From Bradyrhizobium sp. NAS96.2 (GTDB taxonomy: Bacteria > Pseudomonadota > Alphaproteobacteria > Rhizobiales > Xanthobacteraceae), in the NCBI RefSeq assembly GCF_001908235.1, contig NZ_LGHK01000043.1:62001-126000 (forward strand): a stretch of DNA of 64,000 nt, in the 5' to 3' direction. The stretch's first letter is position 1. Every line of letters starts with the position of its first letter. This document shows positions 8,817 through 28,000 of the stretch, one piece after another. Below the pieces are notes generated by a model. That model saw nothing but the letters and a program-made list of their open reading frames with translations, was not told the origin of the DNA and ran no database searches. The translations under genes were made by a program, and so were the position numbers.

Positions 8817-8943
8817 AGGATGAGCTGCGAGGGTCCTTGTCTCGCGGCAGATGACATGCAATCTTCCGCTCCCGGCAATGCCGTTCGAGAGCAACAAGAA
8901 CAATAATCCCTCTCGTCCCTCCAATTCTGTCGAGGGCCTGATC

Positions 8944-10736: not shown

Positions 10737-10771
10737 GCCCCAATAGCGGGGCCGGCGGCGACAGCGCCGCC
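10737..10771 (+). promoter_or_regulatory. Tandem stem-loops with 6-base loops, candidate ANTAR target RNA
   Basis: P1 is GCCCC (10737-10741), loop AATAGC, GGGGC (10748-10752). P2 is GGCGGC (10754-10759), loop GACAGC, GCCGCC (10766-10771). Known ANTAR targets are two hexaloop hairpins just upstream of a terminator, with A1 and G4 conserved. Here both loops share the pattern N-A-Y-A-G-C, so A and G keep the right spacing but are one position later. P2 could also close as a 7-bp stem with a 4-base loop. Structures were derived by eye. Confidence 0.5.
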
Positions 10772-10789
10772 TTCGACACAACCGGCAAC

Positions 10790-10840
10790 AAAGCCCTCCC
10801 AATGCTCGCGTAAGCGCGCATCGGGAGGGCTTTTTGTTTT
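10790..10840 (+). terminator. Intrinsic terminator between amiR and the amide transporter operon
   Basis: Arms AAAGCCCTCCC (10790-10800) and GGGAGGGCTTT (10823-10833) pair without mismatch. The inner ATGC/GCAT and CGC/GCG segments extend the hairpin, and TTTTTGTTTTTT follows. It lies 24 bases upstream of the next start codon, exactly where an AmiR-controlled terminator would block the transporter and amidase genes. Confidence 0.85.
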
Positions 10841-10864
10841 TTCAGTCCTGAAGGGAGCTAAGGG

Positions 10865-12115
10865 ATGAGCATTTCACGGCGGACTTTGCTGAGGAATACC
10901 GCGGCGCTTGGCGCATTTGCCGGCGCCGGACTGCCGCACATCTGGATCAAGAACGCCGACCTCGCTTACGCCGGCGGCGGCGAGATCAAGGTCGGCGTGC
11001 TGTTCTCGCTGACCGGAACGACCGCGATCATCGAGGAATCGCTCAACAAGGCGACGCTGCTCGCGATCGAGGAAATCAACGCGGCCGGCGGCATCAAGGG
11101 CAGCAAGATCGTGCCGATCGTCGAGGATCCCGCATCCGATCCGGCGACGTTCTCGGAGAAGGCGCGCAAGCTCGTCGTCGGCGACAAATGCGTCAGCGTG
11201 TTCGGCTCCTACACCTCGGCAAGCCGCAAGGCGGTGCTCCCTGTCTTCGAGCGCCAGAACAATCTCTATTGGTATCCGACGCTCTACGAAGGCCGCGAGT
11301 GCTCGAAGAACGTCATCTACACCGGCGCGGTGCCGAACCAGCAGCAGGACGAGTTCGTGCCGTGGCTGGTCAAGAAGTTCGGCAAGAAGTTCTATTTGAT
11401 CGGCTCCAACTACATCTATCCGAAGGAAGAGAACAACTACTGCAAGAAGCTGCTCGAGAAGCTCGGCGGCGAGGTCGTGGCGGAAGAATATGTGCCGCTC
11501 GGCCATTCCGAATTCTCCTCCGTCATCAACAAGATCCGCTCGACCCAGCCGAACGTGATCTTCTCCACCGTGGTCGGCGATTCCGTGGTCGCGTTGCACC
11601 GTCAGTACAAGGCCGCCGGTCTCGATCCCGAAAAGATGCCGATGGCGAGCCTGACGACGTCGGAGAACGAGGTCGCGGCGATGGGCGGAGAGGCCGCCGC
11701 CGGTCACTTCACCTCGGCGCCGTACTTCATGGTGCACAAGTCGCCTGAGAACGAGAAATTCGTCGAGGCCTACAAGAAGCGCTGGGGCGCCGACAAGGTC
11801 ACGCATTTCGTCTCGGAGGCCTGCTACTTCCAGACCTATCTGTTCAAGCAGGCGGTCGAGAAGCTTGCGACCAGCGACCTCACGCCGCCGAACATCCGCG
11901 ACGCGGTCAAGGGCCAGAGCATGATTGCGCCGCAGGGCAAGGTCGAGATCGAGCCGGAGAACCTGCACACCTGGCTGTGGCCGAAGATCGCGCAGGCCAA
12001 ATCAAACGGCCAGTTCGAGATTCTCGTCGAGGCCAAGGACTGGCTGAAGCCGGTGCCTTACGCCGCCTATCCCGGGCAGTCCTGCACCGAGAAGGGCCTG
12101 GTCGAGAAGAGCTGA
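10865..12115 (+). CDS. ABC transporter solute-binding protein, urea/short-chain-amide type (UrtA/FmdD-like)
   Basis: 416 residues. The N-terminus SISRRTLLRNTAALGAFAGAG has the paired arginines and hydrophobic stretch of a Tat-type signal, suggesting export in folded form. The mature part IKVGVLFSLTGTTAIIEES and the blocks GSYTSASRKAVLPVFERQ and LYWYPTLYEGRECS closely resemble the AmiC-like sensor encoded upstream, so receptor and sensor likely recognise the same or similar ligand. It is the first gene after the leader terminator. The genes for two permeases and two ATPases follow. Homologues bind urea or short amides such as acetamide and formamide; the ligand here is inferred from AmiE in the same operon. 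Confidence 0.92.
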   Translation: MSISRRTLLRNTAALGAFAGAGLPHIWIKNADLAYAGGGEIKVGVLFSLTGTTAIIEESLNKATLLAIEEINAAGGIKGSKIVPIVEDPASDPATFSEKARKLVVGDKCVSVFGSYTSASRKAVLPVFERQNNLYWYPTLYEGRECSKNVIYTGAVPNQQQDEFVPWLVKKFGKKFYLIGSNYIYPKEENNYCKKLLEKLGGEVVAEEYVPLGHSEFSSVINKIRSTQPNVIFSTVVGDSVVALHRQYKAAGLDPEKMPMASLTTSENEVAAMGGEAAAGHFTSAPYFMVHKSPENEKFVEAYKKRWGADKVTHFVSEACYFQTYLFKQAVEKLATSDLTPPNIRDAVKGQSMIAPQGKVEIEPENLHTWLWPKIAQAKSNGQFEILVEAKDWLKPVPYAAYPGQSCTEKGLVEKS

Positions 12116-12131
12116 CGACGGGGGCTGACGA

Positions 12132-12158
12132 GGCCGTCGGCGTGCGGCGCCGGCGGCC
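12132..12158 (+). other. Strong intercistronic hairpin between solute-binding protein and permease genes
   Basis: GGCCGTCGGCG (12132-12142) pairs with CGCCGGCGGCC (12148-12158) over 11 base pairs with one G-U, loop of 5. There is no T-run. Such hairpins commonly protect the receptor mRNA 3' end or cause partial termination, so that more receptor than membrane protein is made. A similar hairpin occurs at the same place in the second ABC operon (43365-43390). Confidence 0.55.
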
Positions 12159-12242
12159 AGCCACCCGCAACGAATGCTGCTTCTCGCACCCATTGTGTGA
12201 GGGCAGGGCGCAGCAAACGAACATTGAAGAGCGGATCCCGAC

Positions 12243-13112
12243 GTGGACCAATTCATCGAACAAATCGTCACCGGCCTCAGCATCGGATCGATCCTGCTGC
12301 TGGTCGCGTTGGGCCTGTCGATCATCTACGGCTCGATGGGCATCATCAATCTCGCCCATGGCGAGTTCGTGATGCTCGGCGCTTACGCCGCCTGGGTGTT
12401 CCACACCTATCTCGGGCTCGGCCTGCTGGCGAGCCTGATTCCGATCTTCCTCGTGGTTGCCGCGTTCGGCTGGGTCATCGAACGCTACGTCCTGAGCCTG
12501 CTCAACAACCGGCCGCTGGATACGATCCTCGCGACCTGGGGCGTCGGCATCATGCTGCAGCAGGCGGTGCGGCTGTCGGTCGGTAGCGAGCTGCGCTACG
12601 TGCAGCTGCCGCCGGCGCTGTCCGACAGCATGGATGTGTTCGGCATCCCGGTCTCGTCGTATCGGGTGTTCCTGTTCGTGGTGTCGATCGCGCTGTTCGG
12701 CGCGACCTGGTTGCTGATGAACCGCACCCCGGTCGGAATGAAGCTGCGCGCCATCATCCAGGACCGCTCGGTCGCCGCCTCCTTCGGCATCAACGCCAAG
12801 CGGGTCTATGCGCTGACATTTGCCTACGGTGCGGGCCTTGCGGGGCTGGCCGGCGCGCTGGTGTCGCCGCTCAAGAGCGTGTCGCCGGACATGGGCACCG
12901 GCTATGTGGTCGATGCCTTCATGGTGGTCGTGCTCGGCGGCGTGCAGAGCCTCGCCGGCACCGTGGCGAGCGCCTTCATCCTCGGCGAGCTCTCCGGCGG
13001 CATCGCCTTCCTGCAGAACGACACGGTGGCCAAGGCGATCGTGCTGCTCGCCATCGTCGTCCTCATCCGTTTCCGCCCCGAAGGGCTTTTCACCGCACGC
13101 GTGCGGGCCTGA
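12243..13112 (+). CDS. Branched-chain-type ABC permease (UrtB/LivH-like)
   Basis: 289 residues, GTG start. Eight or so hydrophobic segments; the family signature MGIINLAHGEFVMLGAYAAW occurs near residues 35-54 and the cytoplasmic coupling loop MNRTPVGMKLRAIIQDRSVA near 159-178. It forms half of the transmembrane channel with the next gene product. The gene lies 127 bases behind the receptor gene, the gap being filled by the hairpin. Confidence 0.93.
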   Translation: MDQFIEQIVTGLSIGSILLLVALGLSIIYGSMGIINLAHGEFVMLGAYAAWVFHTYLGLGLLASLIPIFLVVAAFGWVIERYVLSLLNNRPLDTILATWGVGIMLQQAVRLSVGSELRYVQLPPALSDSMDVFGIPVSSYRVFLFVVSIALFGATWLLMNRTPVGMKLRAIIQDRSVAASFGINAKRVYALTFAYGAGLAGLAGALVSPLKSVSPDMGTGYVVDAFMVVVLGGVQSLAGTVASAFILGELSGGIAFLQNDTVAKAIVLLAIVVLIRFRPEGLFTARVRA

Positions 13113-13128
13113 GACAGATCGCTCATCT

Positions 13129-14268
13129 ATGCCGTCCAATGCTCCAAACTCCAGCAGATTGCAGCGCCTGATCGCGCAGCTCGCACCTCTGCTGATCGTC
13201 TGCGCGATCGTGTTCGCGCTCCCGGTGCTGCTCAACAACGACTTCCTGCTCAACAAGGTCGCGCGCTACCTGGTGCTCGGCATCCTCACCGTGTCGCTCG
13301 GGCTGTCCTGGGGTTTCGGCGGCATCCTCAATCTCGGCCAGGCGATGAGCTTCGGGCTCGGCTCCTACGCGATGGCGATGGCGCTGAAGCTCAAGACCGT
13401 TCCTGTGCACACCGGAGCAAGTGGCCTGCCGGACTTCATGGTCTGGAATAACGTCCAGCATCTGCCGTGGTTCTGGCAGCCGTTCCGCTCGCTGACCTTT
13501 GCGATTGCCGCGGGCCTGATCGTGCCGGCGCTGGTCGCGGCGGCGCTCGGCTGGTTCATGTTCCGCGGCCGTGTGACGGGGGTCTACGTCTCGATCATCA
13601 CGCTCGCCACCATGGTGGTGATCAATCTCGTGATCATCGACCAGCAGAGCTACACCGGCGGCTTCAACGGCATCACCGATCTCGCCCAGCTCGAGATCTT
13701 CGGCGTCGCCTTCGATGCCTATGGCCGCGCCACCTATTATCTCGTCGCCTGTTGCGTGCTGCTCAGCCTGCTGGTCGCCTTTGCCTTCACGAAGTCCAAG
13801 GCCGGCCTGATCGTGCAGGCGATCCGCGATCACGAGAGCCGGGTGCGCTATTTCGGCTACGACGTCGCGCTCTACCAGATCTTCGTGTTCGCGCTGTCGG
13901 CCGCGATCGCGGGCCTTGCCGGCATGCTCTACACGGTCGTGATGGAGTTTGCCTCGCCGACCTTCCTCGGCGTGCAGCTTTCGCTTTCGGTGGTGGTGTG
14001 GTGCGCGGTCGGTGGCCGGCAGAGCCTGGTCGGCGCGTTCCTCGGCGCGGTGCTGGTCGCGGGCATGCAGGGCGCGCTGTCGGAATCCGCGGCGTTCCTC
14101 GAAACCTGGACGCTGGTGATGGGCGCGTTGTTCGTGCTCGTCGTGCTGTTCCTGCCGAAGGGGCTCGCTGGTCTCGCGCAGGTCGTGCTGCGCTGGATCG
14201 TGCAGCGCCGCCAGGCCGCGGGCCGCGGCGTTGCGCAAGGCGTCGGTCAGACGGAGGGCAGCACATGA
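13129..14268 (+). CDS. Branched-chain-type ABC permease (UrtC/LivM-like)
   Basis: 379 residues from ATG 13129, 16 bases after the first permease; a longer reading from 12820 runs through the upstream gene and is rejected. It shows the LivM features GFGGILNLGQAMSFGLGSYA near residue 62 and the coupling loop FTKSKAGLIVQAIRDHESRV. The region between residues 80 and 150 is longer than in LivM, as in urea and amide transporters. The C-terminus is basic and the stop overlaps the ATPase start (ATGA). Confidence 0.93.
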   Translation: MPSNAPNSSRLQRLIAQLAPLLIVCAIVFALPVLLNNDFLLNKVARYLVLGILTVSLGLSWGFGGILNLGQAMSFGLGSYAMAMALKLKTVPVHTGASGLPDFMVWNNVQHLPWFWQPFRSLTFAIAAGLIVPALVAAALGWFMFRGRVTGVYVSIITLATMVVINLVIIDQQSYTGGFNGITDLAQLEIFGVAFDAYGRATYYLVACCVLLSLLVAFAFTKSKAGLIVQAIRDHESRVRYFGYDVALYQIFVFALSAAIAGLAGMLYTVVMEFASPTFLGVQLSLSVVVWCAVGGRQSLVGAFLGAVLVAGMQGALSESAAFLETWTLVMGALFVLVVLFLPKGLAGLAQVVLRWIVQRRQAAGRGVAQGVGQTEGST

Positions 14269-15017
14269 GCTCGCATCTCGATCTCCGCGACGTCTCGGTC
14301 AGCTTCAACGGGTTCAAGGCGCTCAACGCGCTCAACATGAGCGTGCGCAAGGGCGAGCTGCGCTGCCTGATCGGGCCGAACGGCGCCGGCAAGACCACGG
14401 CGCTGGACATCATCTGCGGCAAGGTCAAGCCGAGCGCCGGCACCGTCAGCTTTGACGGCACCGCACTGCAGGATCTCGAGGAATACGAGATCGCCCGCGC
14501 CGGTGTCGGCCGCAAGTTCCAGGTGCCGAGCGTATTTCGCGAGCTCTCGGTCAGCGAGAATCTTGACGTGGCACGGGCCCGCCGCACCTCTGTGCTCGGC
14601 AATCTGCGCTGGAATATCGGCAATGGGGGGCGCGAAGACATCGAACGTCTTGCCGAACTGGTCGGGCTCACCGAGCAACTCGACCGGCCGGCCGCCTATC
14701 TGTCGCACGGCCAGACCCAGTGGCTGGAGATCGGCATGCTGGTTGCGCAGGACGCCGAGCTGATCCTGATGGACGAGCCGACCGCAGGCATGACGGCGCA
14801 GGAGACCCGCAAGACCGCCGAGCTGTTCGCGCGGCTGAAGGGTAAGCACACGCTGATCGTGGTCGAGCACGACATGGGTTTTGTGAAAGCGATCGGCGAC
14901 ATCATTTCGGTGATGCATATGGGCCAGATGTTGGCCGAGGGCACCGCCGCGGAAGTGGAGGCGCATCCGGAGGTGCGGCGCGCCTATTTGGGATCGGGAG
15001 GCATCAGCCATGCTTGA
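14265..15017 (+). CDS. ABC transporter ATPase (UrtD/LivG-like)
   Basis: 250 residues starting in an ATGA overlap with the permease gene. Walker A is GPNGAGKTT (residues about 37-45), Walker B LILMDEPTAGM, and the switch histidine is in VVEHDMGF. The ABC signature reads LSHGQTQWLEIGM instead of LSGGQ, a substitution seen in UrtD-type ATPases and also present in the corresponding ATPase of the second transporter here (SHGQQQWLEIG). Pairs with the next ATPase to power uptake. Confidence 0.93.
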   Translation: MSSHLDLRDVSVSFNGFKALNALNMSVRKGELRCLIGPNGAGKTTALDIICGKVKPSAGTVSFDGTALQDLEEYEIARAGVGRKFQVPSVFRELSVSENLDVARARRTSVLGNLRWNIGNGGREDIERLAELVGLTEQLDRPAAYLSHGQTQWLEIGMLVAQDAELILMDEPTAGMTAQETRKTAELFARLKGKHTLIVVEHDMGFVKAIGDIISVMHMGQMLAEGTAAEVEAHPEVRRAYLGSGGISHA

Positions 15018-15702
15018 GCTGACCGACGTCGACGCCTTCTATGGCAACAGCCGGGCGCTGCAGGGCATCAACCTGTTGGTCGGCAATGGCGAATTCCTCT
15101 CGGTGCTCGGCCGCAACGGGGTCGGCAAGACCACGCTGATGCGCAGCATCCTCGGCCTGATGGACCGGGTCACCGGACGCCTGTCGCTCGACGGCGCCGA
15201 CATCTCGCCGCTCCGCACCTATCAGCGCGCCAAGGCCGGCATCGCCTATGTGCCGCAGGGCCGTGGCATCCTGCCGAAGTTCACCGTGCGGGAGAACCTG
15301 ACGCTTGGGACTTTCGCGGCGAAATCCGCTGGTGGCATCGAGGAGTGGGTGCTGGAGCTGTTTCCGGTGCTCAAGGATTTCCTCAATCGCTACGGCGGCA
15401 ATCTCTCCGGCGGGCAGCAGCAGCAGCTTGCGATCGCGCGCGCGCTGCTGGCCCAGCCCAAGGTCATCCTGCTGGACGAGCCGACCGAAGGCATCCAGCC
15501 GAACATCGTCGAGCAGATCGAGGACGTGATCACGCGCCTCAACCGCGAGCGCGGCATCACGGTCGTGCTGGTCGAACAGAATGTCGCGTTCGCGCGGCGC
15601 GCGTCGCACCGGTTCGCGTTGCTCGAAAAGGGACGCGTCGTCGCCAAGGGCGCGATCGGTGAACTCACCGATGATCTCATCCAGCTGCACATGGCCGTGT
15701 AG
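15010..15702 (+). CDS. ABC transporter ATPase (UrtE/LivF-like)
   Basis: 230 residues, overlapping the previous gene by 8 bases. Walker A GRNGVGKTT (about residues 35-43), the LivF-type YVPQGRGILPKFTV, a canonical LSGGQQQQLAIARAL signature, Walker B VILLDEPTEGIQPN and switch VEQNV. GRNGVGKTT and DEPTEGIQPN are typical of the UrtE subgroup. It completes the five-gene importer, and amiE follows 33 bases later. Confidence 0.93.
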   Translation: MLELTDVDAFYGNSRALQGINLLVGNGEFLSVLGRNGVGKTTLMRSILGLMDRVTGRLSLDGADISPLRTYQRAKAGIAYVPQGRGILPKFTVRENLTLGTFAAKSAGGIEEWVLELFPVLKDFLNRYGGNLSGGQQQQLAIARALLAQPKVILLDEPTEGIQPNIVEQIEDVITRLNRERGITVVLVEQNVAFARRASHRFALLEKGRVVAKGAIGELTDDLIQLHMAV

Positions 15703-15735: not shown

Positions 15736-16773
15736 ATGTTGCATGGAGATATATCGAGCAGCAAGGACACGGTCGGCGTTGCCGTGGTCAATTACAAGAT
15801 GCCGCGTCTGCACACCAAGGCCGAGGTGCTGGATAACGCGCGCAACATCGCCAAGATGGTCGAGGGCATGAAGCTCGGCCTGCCGGGCATGGACCTCGTG
15901 ATCTTCCCGGAATACTCGACCCACGGCATCATGTACGACTCCAAGGAGATGTACGAGACGGCGTCGTCGGTACCGGGCGAGGAGACCCGCATCTTCGCCG
16001 ACGCCTGCCGCAAGGCCAAGGTCTGGGGCGTGTTCTCGCTGACCGGCGAGCGCCATGAGGAGCATCCCAACAAGGCGCCGTACAACACCCTGATCCTGAT
16101 GAACGACAAGGGCGAGATCGTGCAGAAGTATCGCAAGATCATGCCGTGGGTGCCGATCGAAGGCTGGTATCCGGGCGACTGCACCTACGTCTCGGAGGGG
16201 CCGAAGGGCCTGAAGATCAGCCTGATCATCTGCGACGACGGCAACTACCCGGAGATCTGGCGTGACTGCGCCATGCGCGGCGCCGAGCTGATCGTCCGCT
16301 GCCAGGGCTACATGTATCCGGCCAAGGAGCAGCAGATCCAGATCTCGAAGTCGATGGCCTGGGCCAACAACTGCTACGTCGCGGTCGCCAACGCATCCGG
16401 TTTCGACGGCGTCTATTCCTACTTCGGCCATTCGGCGCTGATCGGTTTCGACGGGCGGACGCTCGGCGAGTGCGGCACTGAGGAGAACGGCATCCAGTAC
16501 GCGCAGCTTTCGGTGTCGCTGATCCGCGACGCCCGCCGCAACATGCAGTCGCAGAACCATCTCTTCAAGCTGATGCACCGCGGCTACACCGGCCTGATCA
16601 ACTCCGGAGACGGCGACCGCGGCCACGCGGTCTGTCCGTACACCTTCTACAAGAACTGGATCACGGACCCGGAAGGCACGCGGGAGATGGTCGAGGCCAT
16701 GACCCGTCCGACCGTCGGGACCGACGAATGTCCGATCGAGGGCATTCCGAACCAGAAAGTCGCACATCGTTGA
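15736..16773 (+). CDS. amiE: Aliphatic amidase
   Basis: Hydrolyses short aliphatic amides (acetamide, propionamide and similar) to the acid and ammonia in the cytoplasm. Its 345 residues align throughout with Pseudomonas aeruginosa AmiE (346) as I remember it: the opening [19 protein letters not shown], the block [20 protein letters not shown], and [19 protein letters not shown]. The nitrilase-fold catalytic residues fall at the same numbers: E59 (FPEYS), K134 (KYRKI) and C166 (IICDDG). The gene directly follows the ABC importer and lies behind the AmiR-type terminator, so sensor, antiterminator, importer and enzyme form one regulon. The neighbouring hydrolase and MoxR/VWA genes are not part of the known ami locus. 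Confidence 0.96.
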
Positions 16774-16817: not shown

Positions 16818-16854
16818 GGTTCTGAAACTGTTGCAAGGGGAAACGGGGGTTACC

Positions 16855-18189
16855 ATGAGCAGCCAAGCGAATAACGGACTGGTTCATCAGGCCGAGGGAC
16901 AGATCGACGACCTTCTCGGTCATGAATTCGAGCACGAGCCGGTGCCAATGACTGCCCGGCGCAGCGCCTTCTCGGTCACCATGGTGTGGCTGGGCTTTCC
17001 GATGATCATCACCGGCGCGATGACGGGATCGCTGCTCGTGCTGGGCATGGGGTTCAAGAACGCGCTGGTGGCGATGATCATCGGCAATCTGATCATGTTC
17101 GCCTATGTCGGCGCGCTTGGCCTGATCGGCACCAGGCGCGGCATGAACTTCGCGCTGATCGCGAGCATCGTATTCGGCAAGAAGGGCTATGTACTGGCGT
17201 CGGGCCTGCTGTCGACCCTGCTGCTCGGCTGGTATGCGGTGCAGACTGGCATCACCGGCGCACTGATCTCATCGACCTACGGCCTCAACTATGTGGCGAT
17301 GACCATCGTCGCCGGCGTGCTCTATATCGGGATCACCTTCGTCGGTGTGAAGGGATTGCACTATATCGGGCTGGCATCGGTGCCGCTGTTTGTCGTCCTC
17401 GGCCTCTGGGTCGCCGCCGATGCGGCATCGACCACTACCGCAGCCGCGATTTTCAGCTATGCCGGCAATAATGGCGTCGCCAGCATGTCGATGGGCGTCG
17501 GCCTCACCGTGGTGCTGGCACTGTTCATCGACGCCGGCACGGTGACTGCGGACTTCAACCGCTGGGCGCCGAGCCCGCGGGCGTCGCTGTTCGCCACGTT
17601 CAGCGCGTTTCCGTTCGCCAATCTGGTGGCGATGCTGGTTGGCGGCGTGATGACGGCTGCGCTTGCGGTGCCGAACGCCAATCCGTTCGGTGTCGACAAC
17701 ATGTTCGGCTTCATGAACGGCAAGCAGCTGACCTGGCTCAGCATTCTCGCGTTCATCTTCCTCTACGCCAATCTCGGTTCGGTCTGCTCGCACTGCCTGT
17801 ACAATGCGGCGACCGGCTGGTCGCGCATCCTCGGCACCAATATGCGGCTAATGGCCGTGATCCTCGGCGCCATCGGCATCGTCGTCGCCGCGGGCAACGT
17901 CTGGGCGTTCTTCATCCAGTGGCTGTCGCTGCTCGGCATCCTGGTGCCGCCGATCGGTGCGATCATCCTGGTCGATCAGTATCTGCTGCGGACCGGGGCG
18001 CGCGCGGACACCGACTGGCGTGCGAAGCCGTTCATCGCCTGGGGCATCGGGTCGCTGTGCGCCTTTGCAGTTGAGAACCTGATGCCGGGGCTGTCCACTG
18101 CGATCTCAGCCGCGCTGGTCGCCGGCATCGTGTACGGGGCGATCGCGCGGGTGGAGTCTTCGGCAGAGAAGGTGGCGCGTCCCGCCTAA
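16855..18189 (+). CDS. NCS1-family permease (purine/cytosine/allantoin type)
   Basis: 444 residues and about 12 transmembrane segments. ATG 16855 is chosen over an in-frame TTG at 16831 because GGGG runs provide a ribosome binding site before the ATG. The sequence RRSAFSVTMVWLGFPMIITG, repeated glycine-rich helices and FNRWAPSPRASL are typical of the cytosine-permease (CodB-like) branch. Its place between amiE and a hydrolase suggests uptake of a nitrogen compound used by the pathway, perhaps a cyclic amide, ureide or nucleobase. The substrate cannot be read from sequence. Confidence 0.88.
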   Translation: MSSQANNGLVHQAEGQIDDLLGHEFEHEPVPMTARRSAFSVTMVWLGFPMIITGAMTGSLLVLGMGFKNALVAMIIGNLIMFAYVGALGLIGTRRGMNFALIASIVFGKKGYVLASGLLSTLLLGWYAVQTGITGALISSTYGLNYVAMTIVAGVLYIGITFVGVKGLHYIGLASVPLFVVLGLWVAADAASTTTAAAIFSYAGNNGVASMSMGVGLTVVLALFIDAGTVTADFNRWAPSPRASLFATFSAFPFANLVAMLVGGVMTAALAVPNANPFGVDNMFGFMNGKQLTWLSILAFIFLYANLGSVCSHCLYNAATGWSRILGTNMRLMAVILGAIGIVVAAGNVWAFFIQWLSLLGILVPPIGAIILVDQYLLRTGARADTDWRAKPFIAWGIGSLCAFAVENLMPGLSTAISAALVAGIVYGAIARVESSAEKVARPA

Positions 18190-18223
18190 GCGATCAGCTC
18201 AATCAAGCAAGAAGGGTACATCA

Positions 18224-19243
18224 ATGAGCGTCGACTATCAGATCTATGATCTCGGCAATCTGACCTTGCAGTGCGGCGCGACCATCCGCGACTGCAAGCT
18301 CGCCTACAAGACGTTTGGCCAGCTCAACGCGGCCAAGGACAATGTGATCGTCTATCCGACCTGGTACTCCGGCCAGCACTACGACAATGAGTGGCTGATC
18401 GGGCCGGGCATGGCGCTCGATCCGGCGAAATACTTCATCATCATCCCCAACATGCTCGGCAACGGCCTGTCGTCGTCGCCGAGCAACACGCCGGAGCCGT
18501 ATAACGGGCCGCGGTTTCCGCAGGTGACGGCCTATGACAATGTGCGTGCCCAGCACCGGCTGGTGACCGAGAAATTCGGCATCAAGCACATCCGCCTGGT
18601 GGTCGGCTGGTCGATGGGCGCGTTGCAGACTTTCCATTGGGGTGCGCTCTATCCCGACATGATGGATCTCCTGGCGCCGTTCTGCGGCTCGGCGAAATGC
18701 TCGCGGCACAATTATGTGTTCCTTGAAGGCGTCAAGGCTGCGCTGACCGCGGATGCCGCCTGGAAGGAGGGCTGGTACACCGACAAGCCGGCCCGCGGCC
18801 TGCGCGCCGCCGCACGGGTCTATGCCGGCTGGGGCTTCTCGCAGGCGTTCTATCGCGAGCAGCTCGATATCAAGACGATGGGCTATTCCTCGCTGGAGGA
18901 TTTCCTGGTGGCGTTCTGGGAAGGTTTCTTCCTGCCGAAGGATCCCAACAATCTGCTCACCATGCTGTGGACCTGGCAGAACGGCGACATCAGCGCCAAC
19001 GAGATCTACCACGGCGACTTCAAGGCCGCGCTGCGGGCGATCAAGGCCAAGACCTATGTCATGCCGGGGCAGACCGATCTCTACTTCCCGCCTGAAGACA
19101 GCGAGAACGAGGTCGCGAACATGCCGAACGCCAAGTTCGTGCCGGTGCCGTCGATCTGGGGCCACTTCGCGGGCGGGCCGGGGACCAACCCTGTCGATGT
19201 CGCCTTCATCGATACCAAGCTCAAGGAATTGCTCGCATCGTGA
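18224..19243 (+). CDS. MetX-like alpha/beta hydrolase
   Basis: 339 residues with the homoserine O-acetyltransferase fold family pattern: early [26 protein letters not shown], nucleophile elbow [10 protein letters not shown] with S130, acid D285 in [12 protein letters not shown] and H314 in WGHFAGG. Family members are acyltransferases or hydrolases, so the reaction is uncertain; the absence of other methionine genes argues against MetX itself. It begins 34 bases after the permease gene and ends 34 bases before the MoxR-like ATPase gene, so it is inside the operon. An amide, ester or lactam hydrolase acting on the transported compound is plausible but unproven. Confidence 0.85.
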
Positions 19244-19277
19244 GTTCGAACGATTGCGAACGGCTGCCTGCGCGATC

Positions 19278-20105
19278 ATGGGAGGCGTGAGCTTGTCCAA
19301 TCCCGCTTTGCTGCTCGACCAGTACCGCATCCGCCAGGAGCCGTATTACCGGCCGCTCAAGGATGAGGTCGAACTGTTCGGTGCGGCCTATGCGAACCGC
19401 ATGCCGGTGATGCTGAAAGGCCCCACCGGCTGCGGCAAGACCCGCTTCATCGAATACATGGCATGGCGGCTCGGCCGTCCGCTGATCACGGTCGCCTGTC
19501 ACGAGGACATGACCGCGGCGGATCTGGTCGGACGCTGGCTGCTCGATGCGGAGGGCACGGTGTGGAGCGACGGGCCGCTGACGACGGCCGTGCGCCTCGG
19601 CGCGATCTGCTATCTCGACGAGATCGTCGAGGCGCGTCAGGACACCACGGTCGTGATCCATCCCTTGACCGACGACCGCCGTGTGTTGCCGCTGGAAAAG
19701 CGGGGCGAGCTGATCCACGCCCATTCCGACTTCCAGCTCGTGATCTCCTACAATCCGGGCTACCAGAGCGCGATCAAGGACCTCAAGGAATCCACCAAGC
19801 AGCGCTTCGCCGCGCTGGACTTCGGCTACCCTGATCGGTCGGCGGAAACCGAGGTGGTGTCGCGCGAGGCCGGCATCGAACCGAACCTTGCCGACCTCCT
19901 GGTGAAGATCGCCCAGCACAGCCGCAACCTGAAAGGACAGGGGCTCGATGAAGGCGCGTCGACCCGGATGCTGGTCAATGCCGGCCGCCTGATCGGCTGC
20001 GGCATCAGCCTCGAGAAAGCCTGCGAGACCACGATCGTGGTCCCGCTGACCGACGATGCGGACACCAGGAACACGTTGCGCGACGTGATCTCGGCCTCTG
20101 CGTGA
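19278..20105 (+). CDS. MoxR-type AAA+ ATPase of the CbbQ/NirQ/NorQ/GpvN family
   Basis: About 270-275 residues, the size of CbbQ. Walker [21 protein letters not shown] (residues about 48-67), the family-specific [19 protein letters not shown], Walker [15 protein letters not shown], sensor region [10 protein letters not shown] and a C-terminal helical lid. Start choices are ATG 19278 and TTG 19293; the TTG has GGAGG 7 bases upstream and may be the real start. Family members use ATP with a VWA partner to remodel or activate a metalloenzyme or Rubisco. The partner is the next gene (GTGA overlap). No Rubisco or NO reductase gene is near, so the client must be different, perhaps the hydrolase upstream. 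Confidence 0.93.
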
Positions 20106-22408
20106 ATGGACGCTCGCAGGTGGCGGTCGCGCAAATCAGTTCGCTCGATAGCTTCCGATCCGGGCGCCGGCTTGCGGCGCTCCTGCGCGGCCATGATGAG
20201 ATCGGCTCGGCCGTGCAGGCGGCGCGGGCCGCATTGCAGCGCGCAGGGTCGATCGATCACCTCGCGGCCTGGGACGAGGCCGTCCACGAGCTGTTCGGGG
20301 CCAATCTTGGCCATGCCGTGGTTTTGGGCTTTCTAAGGCTGTCGGAGCAATGGCCGGCGCAGCGATCGACCGATGATCTGATCGCGATCGGACGCACCGC
20401 CGGCGATATCGGCCGCAGCGCCGGAAGCCGCGCCGCCCATGGGTTGCTGACCGAATTGTCCAAGGTGCTGCCGCGGCTTGCCGGTGCTGGAGAACTCACC
20501 GCCGTTCTCGCTGCGCTCCGCCAACTCGCAGATGCAGGCCCGGAATCGGTAGGCCTTGCGATCGGCCGGCTAGAGCCGCTGCTGGCGCATGCCGGGGGCG
20601 ATGACTTCTCCGCCTGGGTTTCCGCGGGCTTGCGCGCAAGCGGCGGTCGCGCATCGCGCCGGCGCGCCTATTTCGCGCTCGACGATCCACTTTCGGTGCG
20701 GCTGTTCGCGGTGGGGCGGACCGGCGATGACTTTGCACGGCTGGAGAAACGCCTCGCTGCAACAACGATCGCCCTTTGGAACAGAAGGCCTCGCTTCCGC
20801 AAGCTTGCCGCTGCGCCGACGCCGGTGCCGCGGCGTACCTCGCTCGCTGCCGGCTTCATCGGTCTGCCCGAGACCTTTCCCGGCTTTGTAGGCGAGGCGG
20901 CGGACACCATCTATCTCGCGGCGGTCGCGCATGCCGGAGCCCACCTCGTGCATTCCACTGTGCGCTTTCCCGTGGGGCGGCTGAAGGCGTTGCAGATCGC
21001 GCTGGTCTCGCTGATCGAGGATGCCAGGGTCGAGACGCTGGCGCTTCGCGAGATGCCCGGGATGCGCCGGCTGTGGCTGCCGTTTCACAGCGCGACGCCA
21101 TCCGGCCAGGCAACCGCGGCCGGACTGATGATGCGCTTGGCGCGGGCGCTGATCGATCCGGACTATCTGGATCCGGATGCGTGGGTGACCAAGGGGCGGA
21201 CGCTGTTCGCCGATGCCGCCGGCCGCTGCACCGATCCCGCCATCAGCCGCGAGATCGGCGGGCTGCTCGGCAACGACATCGGCCAGATGCGGCTGCAGTT
21301 CAACGCCAAGAGCTACGTCGTCGAGCCCGCTTACCGCGACGACAATCTGGCGCTCTGGGATTTTGGCGATCAGCCGGACAGTCCGACCGAGACGATCGAA
21401 CTTGCGATCGATTCCGTGCATATGGAGCGTCGCGAGGACGCCGATGGACAGTCCACCGACGACAACGCAAGGCCCGACGAGACGCTGCGCGCGAAGGCCA
21501 GCGCGGTCGCGCTGCTGGACGGATTTCCGGTCGCGACCTATCCGGAATGGGACTACGCCGCGCGGACCGAGCGAGCGGACTGGACGACGATCCTGGAAGC
21601 CGATGCCGCCGTCTCCGCGCAGCCGTTCGATCTGCCGACGGACACCGAGACGACCCGCTGGATCACGAGATTGACCCGCGACGCGTCGATCGGCCGCCGT
21701 ATCAGGCACAAGGGCCAGCGCGACGGCGACGCGCTCGATATCGACGCGGCGACCGCGCTGACCATCGAGCGTCGCGCCGGCAGCATCAGCGAGCCAAGGG
21801 TCTACCAGCGCGATGCGCCGGGACCGCGCGATCTTGCCATTCTGCTGCTGCTGGACCTGTCGCAATCGACCGCAGATCGTGACCGTCGCGGCCGGACGGT
21901 TCTCGACGTCGAGCGCAAGGCGGCCGCGATCATGGCGGCGGCGGTCGAGGCCGCCAATGACGCGATCGCGGTGCATGGTTTCAGCTCCGACGGCCGCGAG
22001 CGCGTGCGTTATCTGCGCATCAAGGGCTTTGACGAGCCGGTGGACGCCGTGGTGCGTTCGCGCCTCGCGGGGCTCGGCAGCAGCCATTCCACCCGGCTCG
22101 GCGCGGCCTTGCGCCATGCCGGGGACGACCTTGCGGGACGACGTGCGTTCCGCAAGGTGCTGCTGGTGCTCACCGATGGCGAACCGTCCGACGTCGATGT
22201 GCCCGATCCGCAATACCTGGTGGAGGACGCGCGCCGGGCCGCACAGCAATTGCGACGGCGAGGCACCGATATTTTTGCTTTCGGTGTCGGAGAACACAGA
22301 TTTTCCCAGCTCGATCGCATTTTCGGCGAGCGCAACGCGCTCCGCGTGCCGCGTATCGAGGTGTTGCCGCACCGGGTGATGCAGCTCTACGCCGAACTGA
22401 AGAAATAA
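20102..22408 (+). CDS. VWA-domain protein, CbbO/NorD-like partner of the MoxR ATPase
   Basis: 768 residues, GTG start overlapping the ATPase stop. The long N-terminal part is helical and has no named domain I recognise apart from its likeness to NorD/CbbO. The C-terminal 190 residues are a von Willebrand A domain with an intact metal site: DLSQST (about residues 585-590), the Thr in [11 protein letters not shown] and the Asp in VLTDGEPSD. By family the VWA domain docks the ATPase ring on its client protein. The linker around residues 440-480 is acidic and of low complexity. Together with the ATPase it closes the amide operon; 127 bases without features precede the next gene. Confidence 0.9.
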
Positions 22409-22535
22409 AGGGGGCCTGCCGTCACGGAGCCGACCTAGATCGTCGTCCACACGCCTGCGCACCGCTGTCACACTTCGACGCTAACGTTGCAGATTGGACA
22501 CAGCGGCCCGCCTGGGAACAATCGACGCGGACACG

Positions 22536-23291
22536 ATGAGCATTGGATATCTTTCGAGGGGCCGGGCAAGGCGCCCCTCAGACGCTTGTCGATTGTGCGT
22601 TTTGATCTGCCTCTGCATGCTGGGCGCCGGCGCCGACCTCGCGATGGGCCAAGAGAACCCGAACGCCTCGGCGGCGCGCATCACCTTCGATATTCCGTCT
22701 CAACCTCTGACATCCGCGCTGGAAAGCTACGGCGCCACGGCGCGGCGTGAGGTGCTTTATGACGCCCAGCTTGCGACCGGCCGTCGCTCGAGCGAGGTGA
22801 GGGGCGTTTTCGCGCCGTCCGAAGCCTTGCAGATCCTGCTCGATGGCACCGGCCTGGTCGGCCGTCTGACGTCGGAGAATGCGCTGGTGGTGGTGCCCTC
22901 GTCTCCGGCCGCCGGCCAGCCGACGACGTCTGACGTCGATGCGAAGAAGGGCGATCCGGTTATTCGCGCCCGTTACTATGCGCAGGTGCAGGAGCGCGTT
23001 CGGGACGCCTTCTGCAGGGACAGCCTGTTGCGGCCGGGGCGGTATCGGGTCGCCGTGCAGTTCTGGATCGCTCCAACGGGATCCGTGCAACAGACCCGGC
23101 TTTTGAGCAAGACCGGCGATGACCGCATCGATCGTGCGATCGAGACGACGCTTCGTGGATTGAGAATCAAGGAGGCGCCGCCGCAGGGCATCTCGCAACC
23201 CCTCACGATGGTCGTTGCGCCGCGTCCGCCGGAACAGACGCAGGACTGCGCCGGGATTGACGCAATCCGCACCAGCGGCGAGGCGAACTGA
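22536..23291 (+). CDS. VreA-like signalling protein: STN domain plus TonB C-terminal-like domain
   Basis: 251 residues from ATG 22536 (a TTG at 22494 is possible). A signal or anchor segment (CRLCVLICLCMLGAGADLAM) is followed by an STN domain of the kind found at the front of signalling TonB receptors (ITFDIPSQPLTSALESYGAT, residues about 66-85; ALQILLDGTGL). The C-terminal part (RVAVQFWIAPTGSVQQTRLL; DRIDRAIETTLRGL) is a TonB C-terminal-like domain. There is no beta-barrel. This architecture and the following sigma, anti-sigma and DUF3739 exoprotein genes match the VreA component of the Pseudomonas VreARI system. It would carry a periplasmic signal to the anti-sigma protein. Confidence 0.85.
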   Translation: MSIGYLSRGRARRPSDACRLCVLICLCMLGAGADLAMGQENPNASAARITFDIPSQPLTSALESYGATARREVLYDAQLATGRRSSEVRGVFAPSEALQILLDGTGLVGRLTSENALVVVPSSPAAGQPTTSDVDAKKGDPVIRARYYAQVQERVRDAFCRDSLLRPGRYRVAVQFWIAPTGSVQQTRLLSKTGDDRIDRAIETTLRGLRIKEAPPQGISQPLTMVVAPRPPEQTQDCAGIDAIRTSGEAN

Positions 23292-23301
23292 GCGTGCCGG
23301 G

Positions 23302-23805
23302 ATGAGCGACGCAAACCGGACCATGCTCCGCAGCTTCCTGGCTGCCCGCTACGATGATCTCAAGCTGCGGCTGAGCCGTCGTCTGGGCTCGGCGGAGCTT
23401 GCCAGCGATGCGTTGCAGGACACCTACGTGCGTCTCGACCGGGCCGAAGTGGCGGGGGCGGTACAAAGCCCGGCCGCGTATCTGTTCCGGATGGCCTTCA
23501 ACGTCGCAATGGACCGGCAGCGGGCCGAGAAGCGGCGCCTGGCGCACAACGAGGTTCAGGATCTGCTCCATATTGTGGACGATGCGCCGGGGCCGGGTCA
23601 GATTGCGGAGGCCCGCTTCGAGATCGAGGCCCTGGAGAAGGCGATCGCGGAGCTGACGCCGCGCCGCCGGGTCATCCTGCTGGCCGCACGGCTCCAAGGC
23701 ATGCCGCAGCGGGAAATTGCCAGCCGGCTCGGAGTCTCGCTGCGCCTGGTCGAGAAGGAACTCCGCCTCGCCCAGGAACACTGCGCGCTGAAGCTCGGAA
23801 AATAG
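23302..23805 (+). CDS. ECF sigma factor, FecI/VreI-like
   Basis: 167 residues from ATG 23302, 10 bases after the STN gene; the longer frame from 23215 overlaps that gene. Region 2 is LRSFLAARYDDLKLRLSRR to YLFRMAFNVAMDRQRAEKR and region 4 is AIAELTPRRRVILLAARLQG to EIASRLGVSLRLVEKELRLA, both typical of iron-starvation-type ECF factors. The anti-sigma gene lies directly downstream. The likely targets include this cluster and the exoprotein gene downstream; I could not identify a convincing target promoter by eye. Confidence 0.92.
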   Translation: MSDANRTMLRSFLAARYDDLKLRLSRRLGSAELASDALQDTYVRLDRAEVAGAVQSPAAYLFRMAFNVAMDRQRAEKRRLAHNEVQDLLHIVDDAPGPGQIAEARFEIEALEKAIAELTPRRRVILLAARLQGMPQREIASRLGVSLRLVEKELRLAQEHCALKLGK

Positions 23806-23893
23806 TTGTGCGGTTGATGGCTATGGCGAACGTCAAATGGACAAGCGGACGACCCGGCTGCGGAGGCGGGGGGGCGCTGCGAGGCAAGCCTGC

Positions 23894-24889
23894 ATGATGA
23901 GCAAAGGCGGTAAATCGACGATGGGGCTCGGCGCGATGGAGCGGGAGGCACATGCCTGGGTCAGGCGCTTGACGTCCGGCGACGCGACGGTCGAAGACGC
24001 CGATGCGTTCCAGGTGTGGCGCGAGCAGAGCGCCGCCCATGCGATCGCGTTTGCGAAGGCAAGCAAGCTTTGGGAGACGGTCGGCAGCGCCGGCCAGAAC
24101 CTCCGCTATGACCCGGCATCGGTTGGCGCGCTGCTTGATGGTGAAGCAAGGCGCGTGATGACCCGCAGGCTGGTGCTCGGCGGCGGACTTGCGACCGCCG
24201 CCGCGGCTGTCGGAGCGGTGACGCTGCGTCCTCCGCTCGAGCTCTGGCCGTCATGGTCCGAGCTTGCTGCGGACTACCGGACGGGCACGGGAGAGCAGCG
24301 CAAGCTTGCGCTGAACGACAGCGTGTCGATCAACCTGGACACAAGGACCAGCATCGCGCTGCGCCCGGATCATGGTGACAGCAGCCGGATCGAGTTGATC
24401 ACAGGGCAGGCGTCGATTGCGACGACCCCGCAACAGTCGAGACCGGTGACTGTGATTGCGTCGCGTGGCCAAGCGGTTGCAACGCAGGCCTCGTTCGACG
24501 TGCGCTACCTCGGCGCCGAGGTACGCGTCACCTGTCTCGGAGGCGAGGTTCGCGTCGAGCATCAGGGCAATGCCCGCACCGTTCGTGAGCGGCAGCAGAT
24601 CGCCTACGACGAGCGGCGCATGAGCGATATCGTTGCGATCGATCCGGCCGTCGAAGCGGCCTGGCAAGAGGGTTTGCTCGTCTTCCGCTACACGCCGCTG
24701 CCCAAGGTGGTGGAAGAGGTGAACAGGTACCGATCGGGCCGGATCTTCATCGTCAATGCCGGGCTGAACACCCATCTGATCAACGGCCGCTTCCATATCG
24801 ACCGGATCGACGAAGTTCTCGTGCAGCTCGAGCAAGCATTTGGCGTCAAGGCGAAAACGCTTCCCGGCGGCATTGTGCTGCTGAGCTGA
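23894..24889 (+). CDS. FecR/VreR-like anti-sigma factor
   Basis: 331 residues from ATG 23894 (GAGG about 10 bases upstream; an earlier ATG at 23837 has no ribosome binding site). The cytoplasmic FecR N-terminal domain (REAHAWVRRLTSGDATVEDA, then WREQSAAHAIAFAKASKLWE) binds the sigma factor. One membrane helix (LVLGGGLATAAAAVGAVTL) follows, then the periplasmic FecR domain and a C-terminal STN-like domain (VVEEVNRYRSGRIFIVNAG to GIVLLS). It transmits the signal from the VreA-like protein across the inner membrane. Confidence 0.92.
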   Translation: MMSKGGKSTMGLGAMEREAHAWVRRLTSGDATVEDADAFQVWREQSAAHAIAFAKASKLWETVGSAGQNLRYDPASVGALLDGEARRVMTRRLVLGGGLATAAAAVGAVTLRPPLELWPSWSELAADYRTGTGEQRKLALNDSVSINLDTRTSIALRPDHGDSSRIELITGQASIATTPQQSRPVTVIASRGQAVATQASFDVRYLGAEVRVTCLGGEVRVEHQGNARTVRERQQIAYDERRMSDIVAIDPAVEAAWQEGLLVFRYTPLPKVVEEVNRYRSGRIFIVNAGLNTHLINGRFHIDRIDEVLVQLEQAFGVKAKTLPGGIVLLS

Positions 24890-25034
24890 GGAGGCTTCGG
24901 GCGAGGCGGCAAAAAAATTCCGATCCGGCGTGCGGGTCGCCCCGTTCGGGATCGTCTCAGCCGCGAGGGTCTCGGTGCTGGCGCTGAGACGCGAAATGTT
25001 CGGCTGTTGCCGCCCGGCGCAAGAAAGCGATCCC

Positions 25035-28000
25035 ATGGTTCCCCGCCTCTCCAGATCCCTATCCCGCGCGACGGTTCGCACCGCATTGTTTGGCAGCGTC
25101 AGCGTCGTGGCGCTGCTGGCCAGTACGCCGGTGGTCGCGCGCCCGTTTGGGTCAAGCTGGACGGTGTCACCGTCGGCCGCCGCGATGGCGGCGTCGCAGT
25201 CGGCCGCGCAGGATGCGGCGGCAACCGCCAGGCAGGGCCAGGATGCAATGGCGCGGGCCACGCGCGCCATCCAGGCGATCCAGGGCTTGCAGAACGCGGC
25301 GCGCAGCGCGGCGCAGGCCTCGCAGCGTTCGGTGACGCTGCCGCAGGTTGCCGTACCCAATGGCCTTGCCCCCGGCGGCCTGCAGGCGGCGCCGGGATGG
25401 CAGGGAGCGAGCGCGCCGACGCAGGCGGTCGATGCCGCCGGCCAGACCCAGGTCGGCATCGCGCAGACCAGGGCGCAGGCGATCCTCAACTGGAATTCCT
25501 TCAACGTCGGCGCCCGCACCACGCTAACCTTCGACCAGCAGGGCAATGCGAACTGGGTGGCGCTCAATCGCGTGGTCGGCAGCACAGCGCCGAGCCAGAT
25601 CCTCGGCAATATCAAGGCCGACGGCTCGGTCTATGTGATCAACCAGAACGGCATCATCTTCGGCGGTGCGAGCCAGGTGAATGTCGGCGCGCTGATCGCC
25701 TCGGCCGCCACCATCACCGATACCCAGTTCCTCACCAGCGGCATCTACGCGCAGCAGGCCGGCGGCCGATATGTGCCGAGCTTCACGGATGCCCGTGGTG
25801 CGGTGAGGATCGAGCCCGGCGCGCTGATCTCGACCAACGCGCCGTCCTCGGTGACACAAGGGGGTGGTTTCGTCCTGCTGATGGGAACCGAGGTCAGCAA
25901 TGCCGGCTCGATCAGCGCGCCGCGAGGCCAGGTGCAACTCGCGGCCGGCAACGACTTTCTGCTGCGGCCGGGTTACGGCACGGACGCCAACCAGGGCTCG
26001 ACCACGCGCGGCAACGAGATCTCGCCGATCGTGCGCGACGCGATCGCGGCCGTCGGCAACTCCGGCCTGATCTTCGCCCAGCAAGGCGACATCACGCTCG
26101 CGGGCCGCAGCGTCAGCCAGGAGGGGGCGCTTGTCGCCACCACCTCGGTCAACACCCGCGGCACGATCCATTTGCTGAACGCAGCCTCCGATGCCGCGGG
26201 CAGCATCACGCTCGCGAGCGGCAGCCTGACCGCGATCCTGCCCGAGCTCGACAGCAGTGACACCGCGCTCGACAGCCAACGCAACCAACTGGTCGCCGAT
26301 TCCAAGGTCTTCACCCACGCCCCGGTCGCCAACGCCCAGTTCGACAATCTTTCGCAGCTCTCCGACCGGCTCGATCAGGGGCGCATCGAGATCGTCAGCG
26401 GCGGCACCGTCAACTTCAAGGCCGGCTCGACCACGCAGGCGCAGGGCGGCCAGGTGGCGGTCAATGCCGGTCACCGCGTCTTCGCCGAGAGCGGATCTGT
26501 TATCGACGTCTCGGGCGTGCGCGGCGTGCTGCTGCCGATGTCGACCAACAACCTCCTGATCAACGTGCAGGGCAACGAGCTGCGCGACTCGCCCGTCAAC
26601 CGCGATCAGGACAATCTGAAGAACGCGGATGTCTGGATCGATGCCCGCGACCTGGTGCTGGTGCCGGCAGGCACCGGCGGCTATGCGACCGATCGCTACT
26701 ATACGCCGGGGGGCCTGCTCGAGGTTTCCGGCTATCTCGCCAATACTGCGCACCGGATCGGCGAATGGGCCGCGGTTGGCGGCAGCGTCACGCTGTCGGC
26801 GCCGGAAGTCGTGGCCCAGAAGGGGGCCGTGTTCGACGTCTCCGGCGGTTCGGTGAGCTTCCAGGGCGGTTACATCCGGACCACCAACTTCCTGGGCGCG
26901 GACGGCCGCCTCTACAGCGCCAGCCAGGCCCGCGCCGACATGCAGTTCTACGGCGTTGGCGCGGGCTTCATTCGCGAGCACAAGCTCGGCGGCAAGGTTG
27001 CACCCAACCTGACCGAAATCTGGACCAGCCCGTTCGGCAAGGGGCGCGTGACGACCCGCTGGGAGGACGGCTACACCATCGGCCGCGACGCCGGCTCTCT
27101 CATCCTGTCGACGCCGACGGCGGTCTTCGAAGCTGATATCGTCGCTGATGTCGTCACCAGCTCACGCCAGACGACGGCTCGGCCTGATGGCACGACCGAT
27201 GGCTACAAGCTGTCGCAGAATGTCGCCCCGCTGCAGGGCAAGCTCGCGCTCGGCGGCTATTCGGGACTGGGCCTCACCGATGCATCCGCGGCGCGGGTCG
27301 CCTTCGGTCGGCCCCCGGAGATATCGGGCGCGCTGAACGTTACGTCGGTCTTGCCCGACGATCGCATCGGGACCGCATTCTTCAACTCGGACGCGCTCAA
27401 TGCCGCCAAACTGGGCGGGCTCAATGTTGCGAGCAGCAAGGAGATCCTCGTCGAGGCGCCGCTTGAGCTCGCGCCCGGCGCGCAGGTGATCTTCGCGGCG
27501 CCACATGTCGATATCGGCGCAAACGTCACGGTGCATGGCGGCAGCGTGATGCTGACCAATCTCATGCATGCGGTGCTCGGCCAGAACCAGAACGAGCAAT
27601 GGTGGGCGCTTCGCGACGCGGACGGCAAGGCGCAGGTCACGATCGGCCAGAACGTCGCCGTCGATCTCAGCGGGTTGTGGAGCAACGGACTGACCGGAAG
27701 CGATGTGTCCGGTCAGGCGCATGTGGATGGCGGCAACTTCACCGTTTCGACGACCGGCGGCATCACGCTTGCAAATGGATCGCTGATCGATGTGTCCTCG
27801 GGTGGCGCCATCCTGGCGACCGGCAAGACGAAAGGCGGCAAGGGCGGCAATGTCAGCCTGGTGGCCAACGACTATTCGCATCTGACCTGGACGCAGTTCT
27901 TCACCAATCCGCTCGTCCTCGATGGCACGATCCGCGCCTATGGCTTTGCCGGCGGCGGCAAGCTGACGCTGAACGCGGGCCAGGAGATCGCGATCGGCGA

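Follow-up and report, generated by a model that had tools for sequence, protein, structure and literature searches.

The window analysed here, a stretch of 64,000 nucleotides of Bradyrhizobium sp. NAS96.2 (contig NZ_LGHK01000043.1, positions 62,001 to 126,000 of the forward strand), carries an operon in which amiE, the gene for an aliphatic amidase, is followed on the same strand by genes for an NCS1-type permease, a MetX-like alpha/beta hydrolase, a CbbQ-type MoxR AAA+ ATPase (hereafter Q) and a CbbO/NorD-type protein with a C-terminal von Willebrand factor type A (VWA) domain (hereafter D). Open reading frames (ORFs) and profile matches (Table 1) confirmed this arrangement of five genes, which had been described in an earlier annotation made from the letters alone (the original prediction). 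That annotation had also correctly located residues S130, D285 and H314 of the MetX-like hydrolase, and both the GTGA junction at which Q and D overlap and the intact metal ion-dependent adhesion site (MIDAS) of D were verified in the sequence. The Walker A motif of Q reads GPTGCGKT; D, a protein of 768 amino acids (aa), has a long N-terminal part in front of its VWA domain (residues 580–745). The catalytic residues of AmiE (E59, K134 and C166) are present in all 48 AmiE proteins that we aligned. The original prediction mentioned neither the His-Arg end of AmiE nor the amiC- and amiR-like genes and the ABC transporter at 8851–15702.

Table 1. Genes and features of the amide operon (positions in the window; bit scores with cut-offs in brackets)
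Feature	Position	Strand	Basis
amiC-like binding protein	8851–10098	+	PF13433
amiR-like ANTAR regulator	ORF 9969–10736	+	PF03861, PF21332 (AmiR_N)
Urea/short-amide type ABC transporter, five genes	10865–15702	+	
ABC substrate-binding protein	10865–12115	+	PF13433; TIGR03407 below cut-off
ABC permeases	12243–14268	+	ORF list, similarity to annotated urtBCDE
ABC ATPases	14271–15017, 15010–15702	+	ORF list, similarity to annotated urtBCDE
amiE, aliphatic amidase, proposed client	15736–16773	+	NF009802, 721 bits (427)
Last two amiE codons, CAT CGT (His-Arg), proposed docking tag	16765–16770	+	
NCS1-type permease	ORF 16831–18189, ATG at 16855	+	PF02133
MetX-like alpha/beta hydrolase	18224–19243	+	NF005757/PRK07581, 573 bits (332)
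Q, CbbQ-type MoxR AAA+ ATPase	19308–20105	+	PF07728, PF08406, both over cut-off
D, CbbO/NorD-type protein, C-terminal VWA domain	20102–22408	+	PF00092
DxSxS of the D MIDAS	21854–21868	+	D residues 585–589, DLSQS

Comparison of AmiE proteins showed that a C-terminal His-Arg or His-Lys (H[RK]) is found in all 67 proteins linked to the Q/D pair and in only two of the 53 that are not. In the first set, the 48 aligned AmiE proteins that gave the rule, all 23 pair-linked members have this end (His-Arg in 21, His-Lys in two), as opposed to none of the 10 linked to a different AAA+ gene (the AmiB-like gene discussed below) and none of the 15 others. A scan of the alignment columns, from which L037 was excluded, found a single position, 344 (the His), that cleanly separates pair-linked from unlinked AmiE. 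Beyond these 48, the rule was kept in 62 further AmiE by all 44 linked proteins and by 16 of the 18 unlinked ones. The second set, from the family of genome G325, comprised 51 AmiE (six previously used and 45 new), and co-location of Q and AmiE was recorded by hand before the tails were read; H[RK] ends were present in 28/28 proteins with a co-located Q and in 2/17 without it (both His-Arg). Inspection of these 28 loci revealed Q in all of them and D in 24, short flanks or contig ends hiding the rest. The third set came from the order to which the window belongs (33 AmiE, 15 previously used and 18 new): all 16 pair-linked proteins end in His-Arg, unlike the single unlinked one. Fifteen of these tails were read before Q and D were sought, G1018 and G1045 were read along with their neighbours, and the AmiE of G999, truncated by a contig end, was not counted. 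D is located on the contig of amiE within ∼ 8 kb and Q within ∼ 10 kb in all 16 cases with the exception of G1103, where D runs off the contig and Q is found on another contig that bears the rest of D. The AmiE of G1045 is AmiB-linked and ends in KEAS.

Three imperfect loci were counted as pair-linked: L030 (Q frame-broken in the record), L034 (D without Q) and L028, where Q is ∼ 7.5 kb away from amiE with urease in between. None of 10 chosen plasmid AmiE without the pair had the H[RK] end, a biased sample that was picked by hand, partly for matches stopping short of the protein end. All 20 Bradyrhizobium AmiE end in His-Arg and only three of them entered the counts. As a rough background, 30 of the 1529 ORFs of at least 300 aa in loci L104–L228 have such an end, a number to which AmiE, the Rubisco large subunit and many non-gene ORFs also contribute.

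The architecture of the pair, a MoxR AAA+ ATPase plus a VWA partner, is that of CbbQ/CbbO (CbbQO), with the Walker A and MIDAS motifs kept, and likewise that of NorQ/NorD (NorQD). CbbQ_C matches were found in 124 of the 397 genomes of our phylum sample. Regions for phylogenetic trees were fetched for 100 places among these matches, omitting most of the Rubisco-rich f41 matches and nearly all those below 60 bits; plasmid and Bradyrhizobium loci were added, the 20 Bradyrhizobium loci contributing, besides the window, three sequences to the AmiE tree and four to the Q and D trees. Sorted by neighbour, the pairs are linked to norCB, to form I Rubisco, to form II Rubisco or to amiE, and one further group has no known client. 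In the D tree, amiE-linked proteins form a single clade (Shimodaira–Hasegawa-like approximate likelihood ratio test, SH-aLRT, 90), with one pair without a known client inside it, which is sister to the Rubisco-linked D, CbbO (99); both are split from the rest at 100. In the Q tree, the amidase-linked and Rubisco-linked proteins share one clade (100/98), where the Rubisco-linked ones make up a clade of their own (99/93) and the amidase-linked ones are deeper branches that form a grade around CbbQ; a single clade of amidase-linked Q was not rejected by the approximately unbiased (AU) test (p-AU 0.242). The best Protein Data Bank matches of Q are the CbbQ structures 5c3c and 6l1q, followed by NorQ, and D matches NorD over residues 478–766. 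Both trees place the amidase-linked pair beside CbbQO and away from NorQD, and it appears to be a lineage distinct from either. Several residues, among them His139 of Q and His281, Asp307, Arg412 and Ser663 of D, are common to the amidase- and Rubisco-linked proteins and different in NorQD, which makes them candidates for a pocket that would receive the tag.

Among the CbbQ-linked loci, all 12 form I Rubisco large subunits end in H[RK], as do, with His-Lys, five of the eight form II-like ones, the other three ending in His-Ala; no H[RK] end was seen in the NorB and NorC tails that we inspected. The role of this end in Rubisco is described in parts of the study by Tsai et al. (2015; PMC4660213): the CbbQO-dependent enzymes carry a C-terminal His-Lys/Arg motif that is needed for activation, removal of one or two residues or addition of a single Ala abolishes both the activase function and the stimulation of the ATPase, and an 11-residue C-terminal peptide stimulates the ATPase by itself. 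The penultimate His can be replaced only partly and the final residue is exchangeable (PMC4660213). The same end is found on the amidase in operons that encode the nearest relatives of CbbQO, and the docking used by Rubisco is therefore the best explanation of the tag. By this analogy, AmiE would very probably be a client that the pair binds through its tag, and Q/D is likely to be a CbbQO-like activase of the AmiE encoded in the same operon, docking on the His-Arg/Lys end. The original prediction had proposed a new client, most likely the MetX-like hydrolase, its first choice, or an amidase; the C-terminal tag strongly supports the amidase part of that proposal.

Rubisco and nitric oxide (NO) reductase are the known clients of this protein family, and the genome (G000; 8.93 Mb in 450 contigs) does encode one Rubisco large subunit, on contig C142. 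The pair might then serve one of these enzymes from elsewhere in the genome, its place in an amide operon being accidental. We regard this as extremely improbable, in line with the original prediction. In C142, the genes for the large and small subunits are followed by an AAA+ ORF (Pfam AAA and AAA_lid_6), presumably CbbX, and the large subunit ends in STAG, with no His-Lys/Arg tag. A NorB query of the genome returned just two weak, partial matches (27% identity, 20.6–22.6 bits), and there is no norCB beside the pair in the window. Q is the sole full-length CbbQ-type gene of the genome (the one other CbbQ_C match, 22.5 bits, is partial) and no second D was found in it. The association of the pair with amiE also recurs in many genera. 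In contrast to Rubisco activases proper, the pair is not accompanied by a Rubisco with the His-Lys/Arg end and is placed outside the CbbQ and CbbO clades; unlike NorQD, it has no adjoining norCB and belongs to a different clade. The place of Rubisco is taken, as neighbour and as proposed client, by an aliphatic amidase belonging to the nitrilase superfamily.

The same D (68–96% identity) is encoded in 20 Bradyrhizobium loci, and the five genes were found in the same order in five of the six whose neighbours were examined, no permease being detected in the sixth (L022). This recurrence indicates that the arrangement is not due to chance. In nine annotated plasmid loci, from Rhizobium, Agrobacterium, Roseibium, Roseateles, Shinella, Ancylobacter, Paraburkholderia, Acidithiobacillus and Aestuarium, amiE lies before or near the pair, in Ancylobacter with a urease cluster in between; two of these loci (L026 and L029) also have annotated genes for the MetX-like protein and the permease. 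Both genes are absent from many amiE–Q–D loci (for the MetX-like gene, e.g. L023, L025, L037, L105, L111 and L164). The constant partner of Q/D is amiE; the MetX-like gene and the permease are optional. As these two come and go, the five genes were rejected as an obligate unit; they are conserved together in Bradyrhizobium and some other loci, the general core being amiE, Q and D.

The position of the MetX-like gene, immediately upstream of Q both in the window and in the Bradyrhizobium loci examined, would suit a pair that acts on this enzyme as an activase-dependent amide or lactam hydrolase. That part of the original proposal now appears very improbable, given the many amiE–Q–D loci that lack the gene, the two loci that have it beside amiE and fmdA without Q/D (L192 and L200), and the C terminus of the hydrolase, KELLAS, which has no H[RK] tag. 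In these two loci, the gene (L192 2641–3696, L200 4009–5079) precedes fmdA and amiE, so the hydrolase may itself be an amide-breakdown protein. The possibility that fmdA substitutes for the pair was dropped, as fmdA is also found in 14 of the 28 pair-linked loci of the second set.

The tag itself looks like a dipeptide under selection at the protein level, as it is fixed on a variable tail, is encoded by varied codons and is followed by dissimilar DNA. Position −2 is His in all 67 pair-linked AmiE and position −1 is Arg in 63 and Lys in four, whereas positions −3 to −7 are variable (2.7–3.2 bits) and the tail after the last conserved motif is 6–10 residues long. In the 69 genes that encode the tag, including the two exceptions, the codons are CAC (48) and CAT (21) for His, CGC (53), CGT (6), CGG (5) and CGA (1) for Arg, and AAG (3) and AAA (1) for Lys. 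The sampled DNA 3′ of the amiE stop codon is dissimilar among loci. The tag also persists when other genes separate amiE from Q, as they do in the window, and when D is 5–8 kb away. In a tree of 110 AmiE with their tails removed, the pair status changes 14 times and the tail status 13 times.

Several observations weigh against a tag-dependent amidase activase. The strongly supported branches of the AmiE tree yield just five independent contrasts, of which an average of 4.7 fit the coupling and none contradict it (sign test, p 0.06); the independence of this coupling of tag and pair is thus suggestive rather than proven. Two AmiE without the pair end in His-Arg, those of G914 and G828, with no Q or D match in either genome; pair-linked AmiE are close to both in the tree, so it is likely that the pair has been lost. 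In the Acidithiobacillus locus (L034), D remains and Q is gone, and the AmiE tag is present. Of the 34 AmiE above the curated cut-off in the 397-genome phylum sample, nine have Q nearby, as judged by coordinates, and 25 do not; 15 of the latter lack an AmiB-like gene as well, which means that the AmiE family as such needs no AAA+ partner. Finally, since the last residue of Rubisco is exchangeable (PMC4660213), the Lys/Arg of the tag may be less important than the His. The small number of contrasts, together with the sharing of both features by near relatives, would also fit inheritance of the tag and the pair as parts of whole operons, the tail having no function. We consider this improbable, because the dipeptide is fixed while the tail preceding it varies, because 51 of the 53 AmiE without the pair, many of them close kin of tagged ones, lack the tag, and because the same dipeptide is functional in the CbbQO clients, as described in parts of PMC4660213.

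If AmiE is the client, analogy to CbbQO and NorQD suggests that D would be carried by a hexamer of Q, that the MIDAS of D would help in holding AmiE, and that AmiE would offer its free C-terminal His-Arg/Lys as the docking handle. ATP hydrolysis would then work on the C-terminal segment of AmiE, so that a blocked or mis-assembled subunit could be loosened. Pseudomonas amidase is inhibited by urea. Our first choice for the task of the pair, offered as a tentative guess, is repair of the active site, i.e. relief of AmiE whose catalytic Cys has been slowly blocked by compounds resembling urea or cyanate that the same transporter takes up; we prefer it because of the kinship with CbbQO, the urea-type transporter in the operon and the urease neighbour in some loci. 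Its main rival is a one-time assembly chaperone of AmiE, needed for folding or oligomer formation, as NorQD is in cofactor insertion. This we think rather unlikely: to our knowledge, AmiE has no metal cofactor that would have to be inserted, unlinked AmiE presumably folds unaided, and the closer kin of both Q and D is CbbQO, a repair machine, rather than NorQD. The tag would nevertheless suit either mode, and NorQD, the other well-studied relative, acts on the maturation of its target, as stated in parts of PMC9976466 and PMC13036017. Structure predictions for AmiE and D, made from shallow alignments, were set aside (mean pLDDT, predicted local distance difference test, 48.2 and 35.6 respectively).

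The neighbourhood and the guess of activation are already in print. Parts of a 2026 paper (PMC13209695) describe CbbQ- and NorD-like genes that accompany amiE, amiC and amiR in Burkholderiales and on a plasmid of Pseudomonas, and its authors suggest that the CbbQ- and NorD-like genes could take part in amidase assembly or activation. The amiE–amiC–amiR–CbbQ–NorD operon of the Pseudomonas veronii plasmid pYu-LOS15-16 described there has the same core genes as the window, whereas the window has the permease and the MetX-like gene inserted. The shared tag, recognised here, was not found reported: the words 'motif' and 'Rubisco' are absent from the text of PMC13209695, the word 'amidase' is absent from the 2015 Rubisco paper, and, among the matches listed, a search that covered neither subscription papers nor preprints found no other paper tying the pair or the tag to an amidase.

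We know of no client of the CbbQO kind of activase other than Rubisco. With much less confidence than for the docking itself, we suggest that the His-Lys/Arg end could be a portable docking signal by which one activase lineage recognises unrelated folds, form I and form II Rubisco and aliphatic amidase, that such amidases could be a second activase-dependent class, and that CbbQO may derive from an amidase machine, the amidase-linked Q being the deeper branches around CbbQ. If so, the tag would be a transferable address label, the amidase, small, soluble and easily assayed, would be a simple model of client handling by MoxR/VWA pairs, and the finding would bear on the origin of Rubisco activases. 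The amidases expected to be possibly partner-dependent are those with a His-Arg or His-Lys end.

In 10 of the 25 phylum-sample loci without Q, amiE is adjoined by a ClpB-D2-type AAA+ gene (AmiB-like), with PF07724 and PF10431 in the three of them that were checked. Six of the 10 chosen plasmid loci, in Rhodococcus, Mycolicibacterium, Arthrobacter and Klebsiella, likewise carry such a gene adjacent or close to amiE; none was seen in the pair-linked amiE loci compared, many of which, in the second set, have flanks of just 1.5 kb. The operons around amiE have thus recruited two AAA+ proteins that are unrelated to each other, Q and AmiB, which we count in favour of the proposed amidase activase; AmiB, like Q, is encoded beside or near amiE, but is of a different type and is linked to AmiE without the H[RK] end. 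The tails of AmiB-linked AmiE often have KEK, KER or QER near the end (L186, L194, L195, L196, L198, L201–L203, L207 and L208), which might be a tag for AmiB, a weak suggestion drawn from the sequences of one clade. A class-wide AmiE search gave a match in the genome of the window alone (1/279).

A further group of Q/D pairs was found in 12 phylum-genome loci (L115, L121, L139, L143, L144, L145, L147, L153, L154, L156, L158 and L160) with no amiE, norB or rbcL in the fetched region and no neighbour common to all. The Q tree places it adjacent to the amidase/Rubisco clade and the D tree on the NorD side, and no protein with an H[RK] end common to the 12 loci was found. On a plasmid of Agrobacterium tumefaciens MWF001, a second Q/D pair (L332 8037–12620) groups with the amidase-linked pairs. 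Beside it are encoded CbtA/CbtB, a protein of the CobW type, an amiC/ANTAR regulator pair and tubulin-like proteins, of which the one of 564 aa has the C terminus KAHA, with a penultimate His as in some form II Rubiscos. Tubulin-like genes also follow amiE on Rhodococcus plasmids (L333 12103–15737, L334 12121–15701 and L335 10248–13828), in stretches without Q/D; an AmiB-like AAA+ gene and cobalt transporter genes are nearby in L333 and L334.

In the window, promoter- and terminator-like sites showed no excess over shuffled sequence. The stretch 3′ of D (22494–37005) contains, as judged by eye from the ORF list, genes resembling a pair of regulators of the FecI/FecR type and two ORFs of great length, 1666 and 2384 aa, that resemble adhesins of the filamentous-haemagglutinin type.

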